From the IMG/VR virus record IMGVR_UViG_3300036398_000104, positions 1 through 32,435 of that record: 32,435 nucleotides of DNA. One strand, written 5' to 3'. The notes below the pieces were generated by a model. It was not told the origin of the DNA. It saw only the letters and a program-made list of their open reading frames with translations, and did no database searches. This DNA is from a virus. Made by a program: the position numbers and the translations under genes. Shown here piece after piece: positions 17,424-32,435 of the stretch (position 1 is its first letter; each line of letters opens with the position of its first letter).

Positions 17424-17867
17424 TTAGTTTGGAATGCCAACGGCAATTAGATTAACAGCAAGAGACAAGTTTCCAGATGCTCCAAACCTTACAAACCCAT
17501 CAACTTTAGAGGTAGTTGGTTTTTGTAAAACAACTGTAACGTTTTGACCAGCCTCAGTATTTCCAATGTTTAATGCTGTTGCTGTAACTATTGGTGGGAA
17601 TTTAAAATCATTTTGAAATGAATAAGTAAATGCTCTTTCGTTGCCCGCACTTACAATGCTATTTGTAAAAATTTCTACATATCCACCAACAACTCTTGCA
17701 TTTGATGTTTTTATAGTTTCTTTAATTGATGGACCATTATCAATGCTTGTAAAATTGTATGCTGCAGAAGAAATCTCTGTAGATAAATCATTAATAGTTT
17801 TAGCCAACTCATAGATATATGTAACATCTAGTGGTTGCCCACGTTCTGGTAGCGGTATTTTTGCCAT
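17424..17867 (-). CDS. Probable tail fibre/receptor-contact protein (147 aa)
   Basis: The start is firm: AGGAGG five bases ahead of the ATG. The N-terminal part is helical (VTYIYELAKTINDLSTEI), which would suit a trimerising stalk. The C-terminal half is beta-rich and has the look of small fibre heads: FTYSFQNDFKFPPIVTATAL, then VTVVLQKP and VDGFVRFGASGNLSLAVNLI. That pattern recurs at the ends of short phage fibres. It follows the tail-tip genes and is preceded by its own extended -10 promoter. The function is inferred from composition and position. Confidence 0.6.
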   Translation of the reverse strand: MAKIPLPERGQPLDVTYIYELAKTINDLSTEISSAAYNFTSIDNGPSIKETIKTSNARVVGGYVEIFTNSIVSAGNERAFTYSFQNDFKFPPIVTATALNIGNTEAGQNVTVVLQKPTTSKVDGFVRFGASGNLSLAVNLIAVGIPN

Positions 17868-17882
17868 TGTTCCTCCTATTTA

Positions 17883-17891
17883 ATTATACCA
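17883..17891 (-). promoter_or_regulatory. Extended -10 promoter at the tail/replication boundary
   Basis: The minus strand reads TGGTATAAT: TGn plus a perfect TATAAT. The TAA stop of the upstream tail gene lies inside it. The transcript would start only a few bases before AGGAGG, giving a leader of about ten bases. It would drive the fibre-like gene and the replication genes behind it independently of the tail operon. Confidence 0.55.
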
Positions 17892-24285: not shown

Positions 24286-24927
24286 TTAGACCTCTTCCAG
24301 TGTTACCGAAATATTCCAAAGATCGTGATTTGTTGCCCCACGTTTAACAACACTGTAATTAAAATCAGAAAAATACACTTGTATAATTTGGTTGTATTGA
24401 GCAAGATGTCCAAAAGATGCGTTGGTAATTTCTCCGTTAACTGGAAAGTTTTTATATTTATCGTATGCTAAAAACATCCAAAATGGACCTTGATGATTTT
24501 CGTACCAGTCTAATATTTCTACTCCACCTGCTCCGCCATCTGAAGTAAATTCTCCAGTTGTATTTTTATTTGGTGAAAAGCCAGTTGAACCAAAGTCTGC
24601 TAACTCAGAATAAGCACGGGATGGTAAATTATTCCAAGATACTGACATAGTTAATTTATCTGCAATATGATAAGACCTCATCCTACCATTAATAGTTCTT
24701 TCACGTTTTTCAATTCTCTCAGTATTAAAAGACATATCGCTTCTGTTGTGATCTGACAACATTAAAAATTGATCAACGCCACCTGCGGTAAGGGCTGGAT
24801 CTGCCCCTATTTCTTGTCCAGTTGGCACGTAAAGACCGTCTACTAGGGTTCCAGCATTCTCTGACCAAAGAATTCCTTGTGGTCTCTGATATCGCTTTCT
24901 GCCTAAAACGTATGCTGCGGTTGCCAT
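24286..24927 (-). CDS. Minor tail protein in the distal-tail (Dit) position (213 aa)
   Basis: It lies directly between the tape measure and hub genes, where siphophages carry the distal tail protein. The sequence is mostly beta, with a Tyr/Arg-rich N-terminus (AAYVLGRKRYQRPQGILW), FNTERIEKRERTINGRMRSY, KLTMSVSWNNLPS, then WYENHQGPFWMFLAY and a C-terminal IIQVYFSDFNYSVVKRG ... DLWNISVTLEEV. The ending is a typical strand pair of tail-ring proteins. AGAGGGG precedes the ATG, which overlaps the tape measure stop by one base. I recognise no exact Dit signature, so the name rests on position and size. Confidence 0.7.
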   Translation of the reverse strand: MATAAYVLGRKRYQRPQGILWSENAGTLVDGLYVPTGQEIGADPALTAGGVDQFLMLSDHNRSDMSFNTERIEKRERTINGRMRSYHIADKLTMSVSWNNLPSRAYSELADFGSTGFSPNKNTTGEFTSDGGAGGVEILDWYENHQGPFWMFLAYDKYKNFPVNGEITNASFGHLAQYNQIIQVYFSDFNYSVVKRGATNHDLWNISVTLEEV

Positions 24928-27900
24928 TATGCCCCTCTTTGAGTTTTAATTCTTTGATTGTCAATTTGTTTAATCTGTGTCATAACAGTCCTTGCAATAT
25001 CGTTTGGATTTGCATCAGATTTAACATTAACATTTAGACTATAATTATACACTGAAGACCCACCGTAAGAGCCATCATTTATTTTATTAAGATTATTTAC
25101 TCCAAATGATTCAACAGCATTTTTACGAACAACAAATTCTCCAGGGGTAAGCATTGCTGGAATTGTATCAGTGCCTTTAGAGTATCCTCCAGCAACGTAA
25201 TATTTAGGAACCATCCCACCTTTGGCCAGATAGCCCCACCATGGTTCTTCTTTTGCTGATTGTCTACCGAGTCTTGGATCAACACCAGATTCAAATGGAT
25301 CTATTGGTGTTGTAAAACTGGCTGCCGTACTTATACCTGTTATTTTTTTTGCTAATGGAGTTTTAAATGCACTTGCTGCTGATTTAGCAACTTCGTCTAA
25401 AGCCCGTTTTAATGCATTTGTATCACCAAGTGCTCCTCTTAAAGCATTAGTTAAAAATGAATCACTTTTAATATTTATGTTTTCATTTTGTGCAAGGTCT
25501 AAAGCCTTAACTGCTTCATCTATTTGCGATTTTGTTAAACCTAAATATTTAATTTCTTCTTTTCTTTTTTCAATTGTTTTTTCTAATGCAAACTTCATTT
25601 CATTTTGAGCATTAATATTTTTTTGAATAGCATCTTTTTGAAGATTAAGTGGTTCTATTTGGTTGTTTTGAATGGTAGCAATATCAAGTTGTAATTGCTT
25701 GTTTTCTTTTTCTAATGCATTTCTACCAAGTAGATTAATTCTTGAATCTCGTGATGTTGTTAAAGCACCTTGCATTCTTTCATTAATAAATGCTGCCTGT
25801 CTTGATCTTGCTTCTTGGGCAATTACTGCAGCAGCAGAAATATCTCCACGAGATAATGCATCTGCAAGAGTTAATTTTTCTTTTTCAGAAGCAGCAATTT
25901 CATCATTGATATCTCTAATTTTATTTAATGCATCAATTTGTAAGTTATATCTTTCATTAATTTCATCTTCTTTAATTGCTATTTGATCTATTAAGTATGC
26001 ATTCGATTTAATTTTTGCTTCAATTGGACTAATTGCTGTTTCTGTAATTGAATCAATCTGTTTATTTATGTTTTTTAATAAATCTTCTTGTCTTTCTAGT
26101 TCATCATTATATGCTTTAAGTTTTGGAGCATTTTGCATATCAATTAACTGCTCTTGAAGTTGTATATATTCTTGTGCTTGTTTTAATACATCAAGTTGTG
26201 TTTTTGTTTTTTTTGTTTCTGTATTGTTTAAATCTTTAAATGAATTATTTAATGACTTATTTGCAAGTTCTTGTAGTTTGGTTGCGTCAGCAATTGCTCT
26301 TCTAATGTCAGCCTCTATAGCACCTTTTCTTATTTGATCTTCGGCAGATGTCGGATTATCTGCAGCAATTCTTAAAGCACCTAGTGCTGCCATTGAGACT
26401 GTGGCTCCAACGGCTGCTGCCTGTAGAAGTAATATTTTAGTTTTAACATCATTTATCTGCATAGCATTTTTAGCAAGTTCTGAGTCCATTTGATTTAATG
26501 CTGCATTTAATAATAAAGTTTGTTGTCTTGCATTTGGAATTTGTGTTATTAAAGTATCCATTGTTTTAGCAAATGTTGAATTAAACTTTTCTCCACTTAT
26601 TACTCCATTTTTAAACATTCCAGATAATCCATTAAGATATGTTTTAAACATTGCTCCTGTATTGTTTAACTCTGCTTCTATTTTTTTACCAGGAACTAGT
26701 TTTGAATACCATCTTCCATCTGCTTCTAAAACCATTTGTCTTTCAAGATTGTCACTAATAAATTTGGGTAATGCTGAAAACTTGCTGCCAAGTTCAGTTT
26801 GTAATTCCGTGTTTAATGCGTCTACATCAATATCTCTAAAATCAATCTTTAAACTTGTTTTTCCAGCCTCTTCTTGAATTCCTCTAAGTATTAAAGAAAC
26901 TTGTTCTTTAGAAAATCCTTTTCCAAGCAATTCTTGACCTCTTGTTTTTAATGCTGTTGCAGCATCAGTATCTGATAATTTTGAAACAGCCTCTATTGTA
27001 GATGCAAATTCTTTAAATGTGTCTGATGCTTTAAATTTATCTAATGACTCTCTTGTATTTTTATCAAGAATTAGTTGTGGTTTAGTACTCTCTAGTCCAG
27101 TTTTTGTAGGAACTACTCCAAAATACTCACCTAAACTTTCAACTTGTTTTGTGCTATTTTTTATAGCATCGCCAAATGCTTCTAATTGTTTTCTTTCTTT
27201 TTCTCTTTGTGAATTAACAAATTTAATAATTGCTATGCCAGCGGTTAGCGCTAAGGCAGCACCGCCGAATGCAAATTTAAACTTACCTATAAAACCAAGC
27301 AAACTTTTTGGAAGTATTTGTAATATGCTAGAAAATGCAAATGCTACTCCGCTAATTTTAAAAATAGCCTCTGATAGTTTTCCTAAATTTCCACCAGCCA
27401 TTGAAGCAATACCAGCAAAAGATGTTAAAGCAAATGTGCCACCCATAATTTTACTATTTAAATTGCCTAATTTTTGAGAAGATGTCGTTAATAATTGTGA
27501 TTGTTTTTGTTGTTGAATATTTAAAAGATTTTCTCTGTTAATTCTTGCCTTTTCCGTTATTTGTGACAATGGAATTCCTGCTGACTTGGGTGCATTTGAT
27601 GCTACATAACCTGGTTGTCCTGGTGCTCTAAATGGAACATTTCTAACTCCACCAACTGCAGCGTTAGCCAAAGTCGTCCCTACTCTTGCCACATCATCTT
27701 GTCTATCTGTCATTCCAACTTCTAAACCACGGGCAATGTCTTGTCCAATTTTTATTGTTTTTCTAGATGGAGAAAATGTTTGTGCTTCTTTTTCTGTAGC
27801 CTCAATTGCAGATCTTGCACTCTGTATTCCAAGTTTTTTAGATAATGTTGCATTTCTTTTTTCTAACTCTACTCTTGCTTTTATTTGTTTTTCTGGTGAA

Positions 27901-30725
27901 AGTCCTAAAACTCCTCCAGCAAGAGGTCTTATTCCTCCAGCAATTACTCTTTCTTCTGGGACTACATGTGCTCTGGTCAGTTTTTCTGATGTGTCTAATG
28001 GCAACATTCCTGTAACCCTTTTAATACCCGTTTGGAATCTTTTTGCTTTTCCAGTTCTTACACTTCTTGGTGCAGCCCTTACAACATTTCCACTTTCATC
28101 AACATCTACTCCAGGTACTCTAACATTTCCTCCAGAAATTATATCTGCATCTGTAGGATATGCAAAAGAACTGATACCTTTTGCCATTCCTGCTCCAGTA
28201 GGACCAGTTGCAGAAAGTTTAGATAATATCTTTTCAATTTCTTTTTTTCTTTTTTCAAATAATTGACTTATATGGCTTGCAGACTTTCCAGTTTTAGACA
28301 TTTCATTTGCAGCAGTTCTTAATTCTGTAGTTATTTGTTCTGTGTATGGAGAAACTTCATCTGCCATTTCTAGAATTTTTTGTTTAGTTAATCTCATGTT
28401 GCCTTCAATTGCGCCAGCCTGTACTGCTGTATTTCTTAGAGATTGTGAAAATCCTTTAGTTTCTAAAAATTCTGGAGACATTCCAAAACCACCTGGTTTG
28501 TTTCCTGGAGCAAACATTGTATATGGTGCTAGATTTCTTTCTTGTCCTCCATAAAGACTGCTTACTCCATCTTTATATCCAGGAATATTTCCAGCAACCA
28601 TACCCTGAATTAACGGTGCATATTTTTTGGCAAATTCTGCTGGAATAACTGCTTCTCCTGGAGATAGCATTGCTGGAACAATGTCTCCCGCTCCTTTTGG
28701 TCCAGGGACTGAAACGATACCACTTGCTAATTTTTTTGGACTTCTTCCTGGCATCATCATTCCAGGATTATTAAACATGAACGATTGACCTGCTCTAGTA
28801 GCACTTTGATATGCTGCAATTAATTTTTGAAGTTCTGCTGTTTCAGCAGTAAACTGTTGTGTTAATCTTGCGTGTGATTGATCTAGTGAGTGTGCTGCTG
28901 CTGCTGCTTCTAGTTGTTCACTATTTAAATATTGAGTTTGTTGACCTAAGATTTCTGATTGACCGCTTAATCTCAAATATCCCTGTCTTAATATCATTGC
29001 ACCTTTGACTGCGTTAGCCAACAAGTTAGCCAATAAACCAAAAGTCATTAAGAATATAGGTCCAACAGCACCTATTCCAACTGTTAATACTGTAATTAAT
29101 CTTTTAGTTCCTGCTGAAAGATTTCCAAATTTTTCTAATACTCCACCGACAAACTCTAGAATTGGAGTTGCTGCCTCTAAAAATGCTTGACCTACTGGAA
29201 CTAAGGCTAATTTTAAATCTTCTACTGTTTTCTTAAATTTATTCATTGCAGAATCTGCAGTCATTCCTAATTCTTGTTCAGATAAACTTGATAATTCTTC
29301 AACAGAAGAATTTGCTAAAGAAAGAACACGAGCAGCCTGATTTCCTTCTTTTGTTACGTTAGCAAACAATGTTGACAAACGAGCAAACTGGAACTTACCA
29401 AACATTTGTTCAATAGCCTGTGCTCTATTTAATGGATCTAATTCATTGAGTGCCTCAGCAAATTCAATAACGGTTGCTTTAAGGTCACCTTTATTTTTTA
29501 CAACAATCTCTCTAGCATTAATTCCAAAAGACTGAAGCATTTCAGATGCTCTGCCAGTAGGATTAATTAATGCAGCAAGACCAGATTTAAGTGCGTTAGC
29601 CCCTTCTGATGCATTAATTCCGCCCTCTTTCATTGCTGCTATAAAGAATGTTAAATCTTTTACATCTCCACCTAGTTGTTGAATAACTGGAGCAACTTTT
29701 GGAATTGCAATAGTGATATCATCAAGTGATACAACTGTTTGGTTTTCTACTGCGTTAAGAAAGTCAATTGACTGTGCAAGTTTATCTGAAGACATTCCAA
29801 AAGCATTTTGCAAAGAAATGGTTGTTTCAAGTGCTTGCTGACTATCAATTTGACCAAGAATAGATAGTCGTGTCGCTTCTGTTGTCTGACGTTGAAGGTC
29901 TAATCCAGAAAAACCTGCTGCTGCTGCTTCTGCAGCCAATCCAACAGTCGTTGAAACTGCAACACCATACTGGGTAAATGCTTTTCCAAGTTGTGTTATA
30001 TTATCTAGGGCTTCTTGTGTTTCTTCTTTTGGTGTAAATAAATCTCCGTAAACTTTTTTAAATTTGATGGCTTGTGCTTCCATCTCCATAAATGTTTTTG
30101 TTGCTGCTGCTCCTACTGCCATAAGTGGAAGCGTAAAACCAACCATCAACTGGCGACCAGCCCACTGTGTATTTTTACCAAAGTTTAATAAATTGGTAGA
30201 TCCTTGCTTCATTAATTGATTAAATAATGCTTGTTTCTGTGCGGCTATGGATATTTTTGTACCAAGATCTTGCATATTAAGGCTGGTGGGTCTAATAGCA
30301 ATTGCTTCCATTGCTCCACTAGCATTACGACCCATTTTAATATATTGAGTTTGTAGTGTTTTTACACGTTCTTCTGATACCTTGCCAATTGTGTCAAACT
30401 CAGATTTAAATAATCTTCCAAATGTTTTTGTGGATGCTCCAGCATAGCGGAAATACTCCCGCATTGAAAATTTATTTTTTTCTAAAGAATTGGTAAAAGT
30501 TTCTGCACTTGTTTTAACTGTTCTAAGTTCTGCAGAAAAAGCACCAATAGAGTTAATACTACTAAGTAAATTTTTCTGCAGAGATCTTTGAGAAAGTGCT
30601 GCTGATTCGCTAGACCTAGCGATAGAAGAGTGAAACTGAGATATCTGTCTTTGTAAAGCCTTTAACTGTGCTAACGCTGCAGACGTATCTATACTGACGC
30701 CAATATTAGCATTAACATCAGCCAT
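24927..30725 (-). CDS. Tape measure protein (1932 aa)
   Basis: The largest gene of the window sets tail length and is threaded through the tail tube. Residues 1-200 are helical; about 215-450 match the TP901-type tail tape measure domain (KFKKVYGDLFTPKEE, GLAAEAAAAGFSGLDLQRQT, LSILGQIDSQQALETTISLQ, FFIAAMKEGGINASEGANAL). Hydrophobic stretches lie near 540-590 and 1080-1165 (AFGGAALALTAGIAIIKF), fit for membrane passage of DNA at ejection. A long coiled-coil region, rich in Gln, Lys and Glu, spans about 1480-1760. The motif PAMLSPGEAVIP near 680 recurs as PAMLTPGEFVVR near 1855, which is usual for this family. AAAGGTG precedes the ATG. No muralytic motif was seen. The estimated tail length is near 290 nm. 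Confidence 0.95.
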   Translation of the reverse strand: MADVNANIGVSIDTSAALAQLKALQRQISQFHSSIARSSESAALSQRSLQKNLLSSINSIGAFSAELRTVKTSAETFTNSLEKNKFSMREYFRYAGASTKTFGRLFKSEFDTIGKVSEERVKTLQTQYIKMGRNASGAMEAIAIRPTSLNMQDLGTKISIAAQKQALFNQLMKQGSTNLLNFGKNTQWAGRQLMVGFTLPLMAVGAAATKTFMEMEAQAIKFKKVYGDLFTPKEETQEALDNITQLGKAFTQYGVAVSTTVGLAAEAAAAGFSGLDLQRQTTEATRLSILGQIDSQQALETTISLQNAFGMSSDKLAQSIDFLNAVENQTVVSLDDITIAIPKVAPVIQQLGGDVKDLTFFIAAMKEGGINASEGANALKSGLAALINPTGRASEMLQSFGINAREIVVKNKGDLKATVIEFAEALNELDPLNRAQAIEQMFGKFQFARLSTLFANVTKEGNQAARVLSLANSSVEELSSLSEQELGMTADSAMNKFKKTVEDLKLALVPVGQAFLEAATPILEFVGGVLEKFGNLSAGTKRLITVLTVGIGAVGPIFLMTFGLLANLLANAVKGAMILRQGYLRLSGQSEILGQQTQYLNSEQLEAAAAAHSLDQSHARLTQQFTAETAELQKLIAAYQSATRAGQSFMFNNPGMMMPGRSPKKLASGIVSVPGPKGAGDIVPAMLSPGEAVIPAEFAKKYAPLIQGMVAGNIPGYKDGVSSLYGGQERNLAPYTMFAPGNKPGGFGMSPEFLETKGFSQSLRNTAVQAGAIEGNMRLTKQKILEMADEVSPYTEQITTELRTAANEMSKTGKSASHISQLFEKRKKEIEKILSKLSATGPTGAGMAKGISSFAYPTDADIISGGNVRVPGVDVDESGNVVRAAPRSVRTGKAKRFQTGIKRVTGMLPLDTSEKLTRAHVVPEERVIAGGIRPLAGGVLGLSPEKQIKARVELEKRNATLSKKLGIQSARSAIEATEKEAQTFSPSRKTIKIGQDIARGLEVGMTDRQDDVARVGTTLANAAVGGVRNVPFRAPGQPGYVASNAPKSAGIPLSQITEKARINRENLLNIQQQKQSQLLTTSSQKLGNLNSKIMGGTFALTSFAGIASMAGGNLGKLSEAIFKISGVAFAFSSILQILPKSLLGFIGKFKFAFGGAALALTAGIAIIKFVNSQREKERKQLEAFGDAIKNSTKQVESLGEYFGVVPTKTGLESTKPQLILDKNTRESLDKFKASDTFKEFASTIEAVSKLSDTDAATALKTRGQELLGKGFSKEQVSLILRGIQEEAGKTSLKIDFRDIDVDALNTELQTELGSKFSALPKFISDNLERQMVLEADGRWYSKLVPGKKIEAELNNTGAMFKTYLNGLSGMFKNGVISGEKFNSTFAKTMDTLITQIPNARQQTLLLNAALNQMDSELAKNAMQINDVKTKILLLQAAAVGATVSMAALGALRIAADNPTSAEDQIRKGAIEADIRRAIADATKLQELANKSLNNSFKDLNNTETKKTKTQLDVLKQAQEYIQLQEQLIDMQNAPKLKAYNDELERQEDLLKNINKQIDSITETAISPIEAKIKSNAYLIDQIAIKEDEINERYNLQIDALNKIRDINDEIAASEKEKLTLADALSRGDISAAAVIAQEARSRQAAFINERMQGALTTSRDSRINLLGRNALEKENKQLQLDIATIQNNQIEPLNLQKDAIQKNINAQNEMKFALEKTIEKRKEEIKYLGLTKSQIDEAVKALDLAQNENINIKSDSFLTNALRGALGDTNALKRALDEVAKSAASAFKTPLAKKITGISTAASFTTPIDPFESGVDPRLGRQSAKEEPWWGYLAKGGMVPKYYVAGGYSKGTDTIPAMLTPGEFVVRKNAVESFGVNNLNKINDGSYGGSSVYNYSLNVNVKSDANPNDIARTVMTQIKQIDNQRIKTQRGA

Positions 30726-30750: not shown

Positions 30751-31074
30751 TTATGCCTGTGAATTAAGAATGTCTGTAACAGATGACAAGTTAATGCCAG
30801 ATGCTGCTTCAACAATTTTATACACAGTTGGAAGATCTAAAAGATCTTCTAGTTTTTGAATGTCTCCAGCCAATTCTGGCTTGTATTGCTCCATAGCAAT
30901 TTGTACACACTCAATCAGAAGAGTCATTGATTTCTCATTATCTTCTGCAACCTTAGCCACCCCTTCAAACTTCTTCATAAATGGACGAAGAAGAGAGATT
31001 TTTAGCGGGCGAACTGTTATTTTTGTTCCATCAATGAGGGTGACTTGTTCAGCCTCATGCGTGGTTGTCGCCAT
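30751..31074 (-). CDS. Tail assembly chaperone, short paralogue (107 aa)
   Basis: It is a chaperone-type protein acting on the tape measure during tail building. It starts MATTTHEAEQVTLIDGTKI and continues with PLKISLLRPFMKKFEGV, LLIECVQIAMEQYKPELAG and LEDLLDLPTVYKIVEAASGI. Compared by eye it is about 40% identical over some 94 positions to the first part of the gene at 31116-31811, and stops where that protein continues into its second domain. It thus corresponds to the G form of classic G/GT pairs, but as its own gene. GGAGG lies before the ATG and a TGCTATAAT promoter before that. Only 25 bases separate it from the tape measure, so there is no room for a T domain after it. Confidence 0.8.
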   Translation of the reverse strand: MATTTHEAEQVTLIDGTKITVRPLKISLLRPFMKKFEGVAKVAEDNEKSMTLLIECVQIAMEQYKPELAGDIQKLEDLLDLPTVYKIVEAASGINLSSVTDILNSQA

Positions 31075-31098
31075 TATTTCCTCCTATAGGTTATGTCA

Positions 31099-31107
31099 AT
31101 TATAGCA
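31099..31107 (-). promoter_or_regulatory. Extended -10 promoter between the two chaperone genes
   Basis: The minus strand reads TGCTATAAT: TGn with a perfect TATAAT, in the 41-base gap between the long and short chaperone genes. No clear -35 is visible. The start would be near 31092, giving a short leader with GGAGG. It could raise the short form (and the tape measure) above the long form. Confidence 0.55.
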
Positions 31108-31115
31108 TAAAGAGG

Positions 31116-31811
31116 TTATTTTGTTAGATCTTCGTAATCCAAACCCATCCCTATGCCAAACCCTGCTTTTTGTGCATTTACACCTTGTAAGGCTAAGACA
31201 TCATTGCTATCTTTTGTTGCGCCTTTACTAAATACTCTGGCTTTCATATCTTCCCATTCTTTTTGACCCTTGTTTTTATTTGTTTCCCCGTCTAAATCTA
31301 CGCCTTGAATTGCAGCCAAAAATTTCTTTTCTGTATAATCTAACTCTCGGCTTACTTCTAAGGTTGCCATTAATTCTGGCATTGATAAAGAAGTTTCTAA
31401 TTCTTGATAATCTTTCCATATACCTAGTAAAAATACTTCAGACTCTAGTTTGGCTAAGTCAAGATTTTCCCATGTCTGCCCGCTGTCTATTGCTTGATCT
31501 TTAACTGGCTCTTGTGACTTTTTATTAATACGTATTCCAGCAGCAATATCTAAAATATCATAAATTGTTGGCATATCTATATTATCTTCAACATCTTTAA
31601 CGGTACCCGCAATTTTAGGATAATATTGTTTCATACATACTCTGACACACTCTACCAATACGCCAATTGCTTCATCATCATGTTTAGTATTTTTAATGTT
31701 ATCAAATGTTATCATAAAATCACGAAGATATTTTATTTTTAATGGTATTATTTCTAATTCTGTACCATCAAATAAATAAACCACTTTGCTTTTATATATT
31801 GTAGTTGCCAT
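31116..31811 (-). CDS. Tail assembly chaperone, long form with G- and T-like domains (231 aa)
   Basis: The first 95 residues are paralogous to the 107-aa neighbour: VVYLFDGTELEIIPLKIKYL, VLVECVRVCMKQYYPKIAG, DNIDMPTIYDILDIAAGI. After a polar linker (KKSQEPVKDQ) comes a second domain like the T half of GT proteins: LAKLESEVFLLGIWKDYQEL, SMPELMATLEVSRELDYTEK, KFLAAIQGVDLDG, ending GFGIGMGLDYEDL. Both halves are in one continuous frame, so no ribosomal frameshift is needed to make the long form. No strong ribosome binding site precedes the ATG; TGATAGAAT lies nine bases upstream, so the message may be nearly leaderless. It follows the terminator of the major tail gene. Confidence 0.8.
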   Translation of the reverse strand: MATTIYKSKVVYLFDGTELEIIPLKIKYLRDFMITFDNIKNTKHDDEAIGVLVECVRVCMKQYYPKIAGTVKDVEDNIDMPTIYDILDIAAGIRINKKSQEPVKDQAIDSGQTWENLDLAKLESEVFLLGIWKDYQELETSLSMPELMATLEVSRELDYTEKKFLAAIQGVDLDGETNKNKGQKEWEDMKARVFSKGATKDSNDVLALQGVNAQKAGFGIGMGLDYEDLTK

Positions 31812-31820
31812 ATAAAATCT

Positions 31821-31829
31821 ATTCTATCA
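31821..31829 (-). promoter_or_regulatory. Candidate extended -10 promoter before the long chaperone gene
   Basis: TGATAGAAT on the minus strand is TGn plus TAGAAT (five of six consensus positions), directly after the U-tract of the terminator at 31831-31864. The transcript would start two to five bases before the ATG, which is leaderless or nearly so, a common mode in Actinobacteria with a TANNNT box close to the start. Weaker than the motif at 31099-31107. Confidence 0.4.
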
Positions 31830-31830
31830 T

Positions 31831-31864
31831 AAAACAACAAAGCCCACATCCGAAGACATGGGCT
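31831..31864 (-). terminator. Intrinsic terminator with UUCG tetraloop after the major tail gene
   Basis: On the minus strand AGCCCATGTC, TTCG, GATGTGGGCT form a ten-pair stem (two G-U pairs) closed by a C(UUCG)G tetraloop, an unusually stable loop, followed by TTGTTGTTTT. It lies 20 bases after the major tail stop. It would separate the abundant major tail transcript from the chaperone and tape measure genes, which are needed in small amounts. Confidence 0.9.
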
Positions 31865-31883: not shown

Positions 31884-32435
31884 TTAAGATAATAATTCTC
31901 CGAAGGTACGATCAACGATCTTACCGTATGAGCCTGAAGTATCTTCTGGTAATAAACGGAATGATACTTCAAACATTGAAGCCTCATCACGCTTTGCTGA
32001 AACTGTTACGTTTTCAATTGACAAAGCACGGTATGCTGTATAAACACGTTCCACGAATGGAGAGTCAATACAATCACCTGTACCAGGTCCTACTGCAACA
32101 ATTCCACGCTCTACTGGACATTCACCGATATCTCCTGCAGATAGGTTTAAAACCTGTCCTGCGTTAGATGCCTTTGATCCAGATAGTTCATCTGAGTTAA
32201 ATGCTAGAGCCAAAAGAAGATTCTCAAGGGTAGCCTCAGCAAAAGCAGTTGCAAGATTTACTTGCATGCCCTGCTTGTAAAGTTTAGCAACGTCAAGAAT
32301 TTGGTCAACCTGTACTTCACCGAAGTCTGGTTGGAACTGTAATTCAAGACCGTTCATGGTGTAACCTACGTTTGTATAACCTGCATCATCAGCAAGGGTT
32401 TCCTTGAATGATTCTTCAGTATCAAAACTTTCCAG
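31884..32435 (-). CDS. Major tail protein, N-terminus outside the window (183 aa seen)
   Basis: The frame is open to the window edge, so the first part of the protein is missing. The visible part begins LESFDTEESFKETLADDAGY and has GLELQFQPDFGEVQVDQILD, then AKLYKQGMQVNLATAFAEAT and LENLLLALAFN. This is the pattern of actinophage tail tube subunits: a strand, an acidic linker, the VDQ motif and the AEATLENLL helix. The C-terminal half is beta (ALSIENVTVSAKRDEASMFE, VSFRLLPED). Tail tube proteins stack in rings to form the tube. The position upstream of the chaperones and tape measure is canonical, and a strong terminator follows it. Confidence 0.85.
   Translation of the reverse strand: MESFDTEESFKETLADDAGYTNVGYTMNGLELQFQPDFGEVQVDQILDVAKLYKQGMQVNLATAFAEATLENLLLALAFNSDELSGSKASNAGQVLNLSAGDIGECPVERGIVAVGPGTGDCIDSPFVERVYTAYRALSIENVTVSAKRDEASMFEVSFRLLPEDTSGSYGKIVDRTFGELLS

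Follow-up and report, generated by a model that had tools for sequence, protein, structure and literature searches.

How can a phage supply both the short and the long form of its tail assembly chaperone when the long form is encoded in a single reading frame? The question is raised by two neighbouring genes of the virus record IMGVR_UViG_3300036398_000104, the whole of which (32,435 nucleotides (nt), 32–35% GC) was analysed and is called the window below. In lambda, as described in the available portion of PMC5009743, the short protein G binds the tape measure protein while the T domain of the longer protein GT binds the tube protein, at a molar ratio of 30:1, and the same portion presents the G/GT frameshift as widely conserved among long-tailed double-stranded DNA phages. 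The window carries, on its minus strand, a long gene (31116..31811, ATG start, 231 amino acids (aa)) with G and T domains in one frame, followed by a short gene (30751..31074, minus strand, ATG start, 107 aa) with a G domain only; both open reading frames (ORFs), already noticed in a first-pass annotation, are confirmed. A lambda-type frameshift calls for T in another frame and for a slippery site, and here T is in frame with G. We consider it probable that the two neighbouring genes make G and GT in place of an ancestral frameshift, the G:GT ratio being set by gene expression.

In the mechanism that we propose, the short protein (G) would coat the tape measure protein, while the long protein (GT) would join this coat through its G domain and recruit tail-tube subunits through its T domain. 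Ancestrally, one gene would have given both forms by a −1 frameshift, mostly at CCCAAA(T/C). The unit would then have been duplicated, one copy becoming an in-frame GT fusion devoid of the slippery site and the other a dedicated short gene.

Two related genes and an absent slippery site

The resemblance between the two proteins reflects homology rather than chance, judging from sequence comparison at several levels. Within the window's own record, the short protein aligns with residues 1–97 of the long one at 41% identity (E = 6.0e-24), so that the "about 40%" over the "first 95 residues only" of the first-pass annotation was accurate. A profile–profile comparison with hhalign, built on 36 sequences of each protein, aligns 99 columns (probability 99.9, E = 3.8e-34), all within the N-terminal ~100 residues of the long protein. 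Both proteins match phrog_10504, a family without assigned function (long: E = 3.1e-21; short: E = 3.5e-21), as do 36/36 short representatives, and each of the two can be aligned with the G protein of the frameshift relatives, which places them in the same family. A second match is found only in the long protein (phrog_10474, residues 131–223), whose T part can be aligned with the ORF that encodes T in the −1 frame of the frameshift relatives; the long protein can thus be partitioned into a G domain (residues ~1–97), a linker (~98–113) and a T domain (~114–231). The predicted models, with a mean predicted local distance difference test (pLDDT) score of 76 for the long protein and a low-confidence 68 for the short one, have a beta-hairpin and four helices in common at matching residues. 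Finally, the short protein, searched against nine long virus records over their entire length, gave two matches in 6/6 fused-type records and one in 3/3 frameshift-type records, as expected if the genes are duplicates.

To what extent this arrangement recurs was examined with six viral scans, three of which kept only their best 80 loci each, thereby favouring near relatives. A first set of 254 loci (IMG/VR contigs and three phage records, L163–L165, with L001–L002 left out and repeats included) contains two types: a fused GT followed by a separate G, complete at 214 loci, and G and T in two frames, at 14 loci, while the remaining fused-type loci lack a gene at one end of the stretch. Two more scans added 85 loci, of which 24 are complete fused and 47 complete frameshift loci. 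The complete order M-GT-G-P, from the major tail to the tape measure gene, is thus seen in 214/254 and 24/85 loci, contig repeats included; loci of the M-GT type (8 in the first set, 3 in the second) end soon after the long gene, judging by their lengths. Because many loci are repeats of one contig, distinct regions were counted. Before counting, we discarded loci that break off within the short gene or extend fewer than 40, 60 or 110 nt upstream, loci lacking a start codon close to the aligned start, and G domains interrupted by a stop; for the trees, near-identical rows were removed as well. The number of distinct fused regions went from 98 to 133 and then 143 as the sets and start rules changed, leaving, after removal of duplicates, 143 fused regions, selected as single open frames, and 54 frameshift regions. 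Thirty-six representatives were obtained by thinning below 82% identity. An assembly or frameshift error, considered as an explanation of the single-frame GT with a separate G, was rejected, since the arrangement recurs in 143 distinct regions.

Among 50,697 phage records, the long protein matches 130, from 127 Streptomyces and three Rhodococcus phages, and the short protein matches 124 places in 124 Streptomyces records, i.e., one detectable G each. In the genomes of Coruscant, Angela and BillNye, the major tail protein, G, T and tape measure genes follow one another in this order, T being read at −1 relative to G, and the annotation of Rhodococcus phage Dorin lists a single G gene and a chaperone joined from two pieces. 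The nearest frameshift relatives have a T domain 59–62% identical to the fused T (five loci compared). The eight best terminase matches listed all belong to Streptomyces phages (54% over 594 aa), hence our description of the phage group as probably actinobacterial; a scan of a genome collection for the host, made with the profile of the long gene, gave 102 matching stretches, of which none was confirmed.

In every one of the 54 frameshift regions, T lies at −1 of G. The heptamer C CCA AA(T/C) occurs in 41/54 of them, as part of an NDPN motif close to where the overlap begins, and the other 13 comprise 12 Streptomyces-type regions with CCCGGAA at that place (L163, L164 and L166–L175) and Dorin; all frameshift regions but these have CCCAAA(T/C). 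It is because of this two-frame arrangement and heptamer that we infer frameshifting in the relatives. In the fused long genes, by comparison, CCCAAA(T/C) is found in frame within codons 85–125 in 1/143, and CCCAAA in any frame within nt 255–375 in 2/143, which bears out the suggestion of the first-pass annotation that the usual frameshifting has been replaced.

The long gene itself might nevertheless still yield a short form through a cryptic frameshift or an internal stop, the 107-aa gene having another role. Stops do occur soon after the G/T junction in both other frames (read by eye), and residues 96–99 of the window's long protein are encoded by an A-rich stretch, AATAAAAAGTCA. However, 125/143 long genes are without any XXXYYYZ heptamer in codons 85–125, no single heptamer is found in more than four of the others, and synonymous variation at the junction (0.41–0.57 per 11-codon window, against a mean of 0.47 in the 36 representatives) shows no dip, hence no hidden signal. 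We regard such a cryptic product as very unlikely. Remnants of a frameshift site in the long gene, another candidate, were rejected for want of a shared heptamer and of synonymous constraint.

Two parts of the long protein deserve a separate comment. The linker, which occupies the position of the former frameshift site (31470–31520, residues ~98–114), has conserved residues of its own (V103, Q106, A107 and S110) and is mostly predicted to be helical, so the fusion joint may itself be under selection. At the C-terminus (31116–31187), a strongly conserved glycine-rich tail, AQKAGFGIGMGLxYE, has many invariant columns in 36 sequences, and is partly modelled with a pLDDT below 50; this tail of the T domain could perhaps contact the tube protein.

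That the products act as tail assembly chaperones is our reading of synteny, homology and weak fold matches. On the minus strand, transcription would run from a tail-tube-like gene through the long and short genes to a tape measure gene, so that both genes sit between the major tail protein and tape measure genes. The upstream neighbour (31884..32435, minus strand, 183 aa present) is cut by the end of the window, the record being incomplete at least there. It matches phrog_2175 (E = 6.2e-29), a family named "protein with Ig domain" that includes a BillNye protein recorded as major tail protein, and is similar to, and in the same position as, the annotated major tail protein genes of Coruscant and Angela. 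Directly downstream lies the tape measure gene (24927..30725, minus strand, 1932 aa; PhageMin_Tail of Pfam, E = 1e-26; phrog_10030, E = 8.2e-106). Moreover, the short and long products have the N-terminal domain in common, to which the long one adds the T domain, and the homologous genes of Streptomyces phages are annotated as tail assembly chaperones. In a fold search of BFVD with the long model, the two best matches are unnamed, while the best named ones are tail assembly chaperones, of an uncultured phage (E = 4.1e-4) and of Kitkat (E = 2.2e-3).

Other searches speak against this identification, and with it for the idea that the two genes are paralogues of some other function located before the tape measure gene. 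Neither window protein exceeds a Pfam cut-off or matches an NCBIfam family; a sequence search of the PDB gives nothing below E = 0.2, and Foldseek against the PDB nothing below E = 1, hence no significant fold match there. The tail assembly chaperone family phrog_1932 is matched weakly, by 3/36 short proteins (E = 0.0013 at best; 0.05 for that of the window). As for HK97 2ob9, which alone of the 50 PDB matches listed by VIA-align is a phage tail chaperone, it aligns over 88 residues with residues 1–95 of the short model, but its values (Z 4.2, root-mean-square deviation 5.0, 8% identity) lie among those of unrelated helical matches. Set against the position of the genes, their G/T two-domain partition, their homology to annotated Streptomyces phage chaperones and the named viral fold matches, a function other than that of chaperones appears extremely improbable.

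Start signals of the long and short genes

We think that the differing start signals of the two genes, of which the first-pass annotation made no mention, are the most informative part of the locus. The short gene of the window is preceded by a Shine-Dalgarno site, AGGAGG (31080..31085, minus strand), without counterpart before the long gene, and the energies of the duplex with the anti-Shine-Dalgarno sequence are −10.2 and −2.9, respectively, which are also the medians across the 143 fused regions. An energy of −8 or lower is reached by 143/143 short genes versus 2/143 long genes, the short gene having the stronger site in 142/143 regions. Further upstream, a consensus extended −10 element, TGCTATAAT (31099..31107, minus strand), ends 24 nt 5' of the short ATG. 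The corresponding motif, TGnTATAAT, is found 11–35 nt before the short ATG in 138/143 regions and in 35/36 representatives (shuffles: mean 0.10, maximum 1).

The same signals precede the G gene of the frameshift phages, with TGnTATAAT in 12/14, TGnTAnnnT in 14/14 and a duplex energy of −8 reached in 53/54 (the exception being Dorin, −3.4). In the nearest frameshift relatives, TGnTATAAT and a strong Shine-Dalgarno match occur together in 25/25 distinct regions. On these grounds, the short gene is best described as keeping the ancestral start module, i.e., the consensus extended −10 element and AGGAGG. A similar module, with TGGTATAAT ending 15 nt upstream and AGGAGG, precedes the gene at 17424–17867 (stretch 17424–17891), perhaps another highly expressed late gene.

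The long gene begins differently. Between the tail-tube-like gene and the long gene, an intrinsic-terminator-like hairpin with a T-rich tract was read by eye (31831..31864, minus strand), and this stretch folds with z < −2 in 36/36 representatives (median −5.6), as does its equivalent before the frameshift G in 14/14; the stretch before the short gene yields a terminator-like fold (z < −2) in 0/36 representatives, which is why the GT transcript is expected to run through the short gene. Just after the hairpin comes an extended −10-like element, TGATAGAAT (31821..31829, minus strand), ending 9 nt 5' of the long ATG. A TGnTAnnnT motif ending 4–10 nt before the long ATG is found in 33/36 representatives (shuffles: mean 0.64, maximum 4) and in 124/143 regions, the stricter TGnTAnAAT before the long gene in 23/36 representatives, and, of the 27 gene starts of the window, only that of the long gene has TGnTAnnnT at this distance. 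In 99 distinct 60-nt stretches before the tape measure gene, TGnTAnAAT never occurs (0/99). The commonest spacings between this element and the ATG are 6–9 nt, while the usual distance from a −10 element to the transcription start is 6–7 nt. The long message would therefore begin 0–3 nt before the ATG, and we predict that GT is translated from a leaderless or near-leaderless transcript.

Several observations weigh against this prediction or against the use that we make of it. TGnTAnnnT at 4–10 nt is absent from 19/143 long genes; among 14 such exceptions inspected, nine have a −10 element 14–20 nt upstream, before a G-rich weak site, and the other five have TATACT near the ATG, without TG. In addition, the two long genes with a duplex energy of −8 or lower have a Shine-Dalgarno match of their own, and TGnTAnAAT as such is not enriched in the window (14 occurrences vs. 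14.0 expected), so that the case for a promoter rests on position and conservation. Furthermore, leaderless initiation is, according to the available portion of PMC4633059, common in mycobacteria and comparably robust to leadered initiation. A leaderless GT is therefore plausible in an actinobacterial host, but leaderless initiation alone does not imply low output, and a low output of GT must also come from promoter strength or transcript number. The loci L122, L124, L126, L199, L202, L203, L210, L233 and L237, with a −10 element ~14–20 nt before the long start and a G-rich weak ribosome site, form a subset of possible intermediates between leadered and leaderless starts.

In terms of the proposed mechanism, the short gene, with its ancestral extended −10 element and strong Shine-Dalgarno leader, would provide the bulk of G, whereas the GT gene, driven by its own variant −10 element behind the terminator-like hairpin, would give fewer GT subunits from a separate and probably leaderless message. 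Because transcription from the GT promoter would continue through G, two transcripts would serve for G but a single one for GT. We infer from the signals that the G:GT ratio is now governed by the promoter and the mode of initiation; that the short form is the more abundant one, as already supposed in the first-pass annotation, receives indirect support from the same signals. Put in its most specific form, the frameshift would have been replaced by two nested transcription units, a leaderless mRNA for scarce GT and a Shine-Dalgarno-led, two-transcript message for abundant G, with this architecture fixing the stoichiometry, a version that we advance tentatively, with slightly more doubt than confidence.

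Origin of the two genes

To place the two genes relative to the frameshift G, a tree was computed from 101 columns and 86 rows, with the root set by us on L332–L341, the least similar frameshift loci. Rooting with Dorin was rejected, since its T part could be aligned to the window over 58 residues only, and this phage does not figure in the trees. The long and short G domains each form a single clade (98/95 and 99/98, respectively), nested inside the frameshift phages, and an earlier tree with eight frameshift G rows has the same three groups (long: 94/78). By parsimony, two-gene coding would thus be derived and would have arisen once. Trees of the T domain and of the tape measure protein both unite the fused phages and their nearest frameshift relatives in one clade, with a support of 100 in the Shimodaira–Hasegawa-like approximate likelihood ratio test (SH-aLRT), and leave the order of fused and frameshift phages within it unresolved, the tape measure tree moreover with a long-branch warning.

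At face value, the G tree is at odds with a local duplication in the ancestor of the fused phages, because the G of the nearest frameshift relatives (rows L298/L318/L324/L331) groups with the short clade (99/93) instead of falling outside long plus short. This tree has few columns, and its bootstrap has not settled. Constraining the two paralogues to one clade lowers the log-likelihood by 9.7 units, and the approximately unbiased test does not reject this constraint (p-AU 0.335). The misfit may reflect either an old duplication followed by loss of the long copy in the relatives, a faster long clade drawn outwards, or an exchange of the long G. In the last case, the fused GT, or its G domain, would have come by recombination from another phage rather than from a local duplication, and the position of the long clade outside both the short clade and the nearest relatives' G is what such an event would leave. 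The T domains and tape measure N-termini of the fused phages and nearest relatives nonetheless form one clade each; since a single origin of long and short is not rejected and a long branch can pull the long clade outwards, we hold recombination to be unlikely.

Conversely, the nearest frameshift phages could descend from a fused ancestor and have regained frameshifting. A quick T tree indeed puts their T among the fused ones (SH-aLRT 94, not starred), and their place is left open by the tape measure tree. Yet a tree in which the fused T are held together is not rejected (p-AU 0.455), and the same heptamer at the same NDPN site occurs in the least similar frameshift phages, such that a regain would have had to recreate it. 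This reversal is, in our judgement, quite improbable. The order of events that we favour, i.e., frameshifting first and two-gene coding second, may be refined with the help of TP901-1: in the available portion of PMC4493119, phages in which G and T are fixed in frame, with no separate short gene, make normal-looking but non-infectious particles. A fusion should accordingly need a separate short gene, which probably preceded it.

Since the duplication, the copies would have been free to diverge, as the first-pass annotation put it, and the evidence on this point is mixed. Long G and short do form two clades, and their lists of invariant positions differ. All parts are under purifying selection, the median pairwise ratio of nonsynonymous to synonymous substitution rates (dN/dS) being 0.24 for long G, 0.11 for T and 0.14 for short. 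Identity is higher for short than for long G in 500/630 representative pairs, although these pairs are non-independent; in matched pairs, likewise non-independent, the dN/dS of short is the lower one in only 53/108, so that neither copy is shown to be more constrained.

Divergence of this kind is also what would be expected of specialised paralogues, both of them chaperones with different partners, for example parts of the tape measure protein, or forming an obligate hetero-oligomer. The identity of only ~40% between long G and short, their separate clades and their differing invariant positions are compatible with such a specialisation, but the gene order, the T-domain partition and the start signals fit a plain short/long pair, and the short profile aligns over nearly its full length with the frameshift G profile. 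We view specialisation as possible if rather doubtful; it would in any case be compatible with two genes that make G and GT in place of a frameshift.

Known systems and significance

The Stanwilliamsviridae Streptomyces phages (Coruscant, Angela and BillNye) resemble the window in having homologous G (36–40% identity) and T at the same genome place, with the hairpin, the extended −10 element and the Shine-Dalgarno site before G, but have only one G gene and encode T in the −1 frame. The same contrast holds for the nearest uncultured frameshift relatives (most of L288–L307 and L317–L331; L340), which have the start module of the window-type short gene, one G gene, T in the −1 frame and CCCAAA(T/C). 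With lambda and TP901-1 gpG/gpGT, the likeness considered is that of the two-form logic: in the available portions of PMC5009743 and PMC4493119, G likewise acts on the tape measure protein and T recruits the tube protein, but both forms come from one gene through a −1 frameshift.

The two-gene principle is already known from T4-like phages, which are contractile. As reported in the available portion of PMC10885494, citing Vladimirov et al. 2022, some of these phages have one short and one longer, fused chaperone gene in place of frameshifting. The comparison with this work (Vladimirov, Gautam and Davidson 2022) is by description only: a separate short gene and a long fusion gene are common to both, while a frameshifting sister group is at hand here. 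The novelty implied by the first-pass annotation is thereby narrowed to a siphophage-like lineage. It is further weakened by 342 actinophage genomes in which two chaperone genes stand unjoined, a state that the authors suspect to stem mostly from incomplete annotation (available portion of PMC10885494). No report of two-gene chaperones in siphophages or of a leaderless GT appeared in the titles and abstract openings searched, most subscription journals being outside their coverage, and no such gene pair is described in the available portions of PMC4982279, PMC5679792, PMC12859696, PMC13325033 and PMC12846349. As far as these searches show, what is new is a siphophage-like lineage with the two-gene solution, frameshift sisters that point to the ancestral state, the loss of the slippery site and the divergent promoter and initiation signals.

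For annotation, the hint is that a GT fused in a single frame is not necessarily a frameshift error when a G-like ORF preceded by a Shine-Dalgarno site comes after it. For the biology of tail assembly, this group of phages amounts to a natural experiment, in which one clade would have given frameshifting up and its sister clade kept it, while distant relatives have the same slippery site. It allows one to ask whether frameshifting serves a fixed ratio, the co-translational pairing of G and GT or merely compact coding, and which G residues are specific to the bulk coat as opposed to the rare GT subunit.
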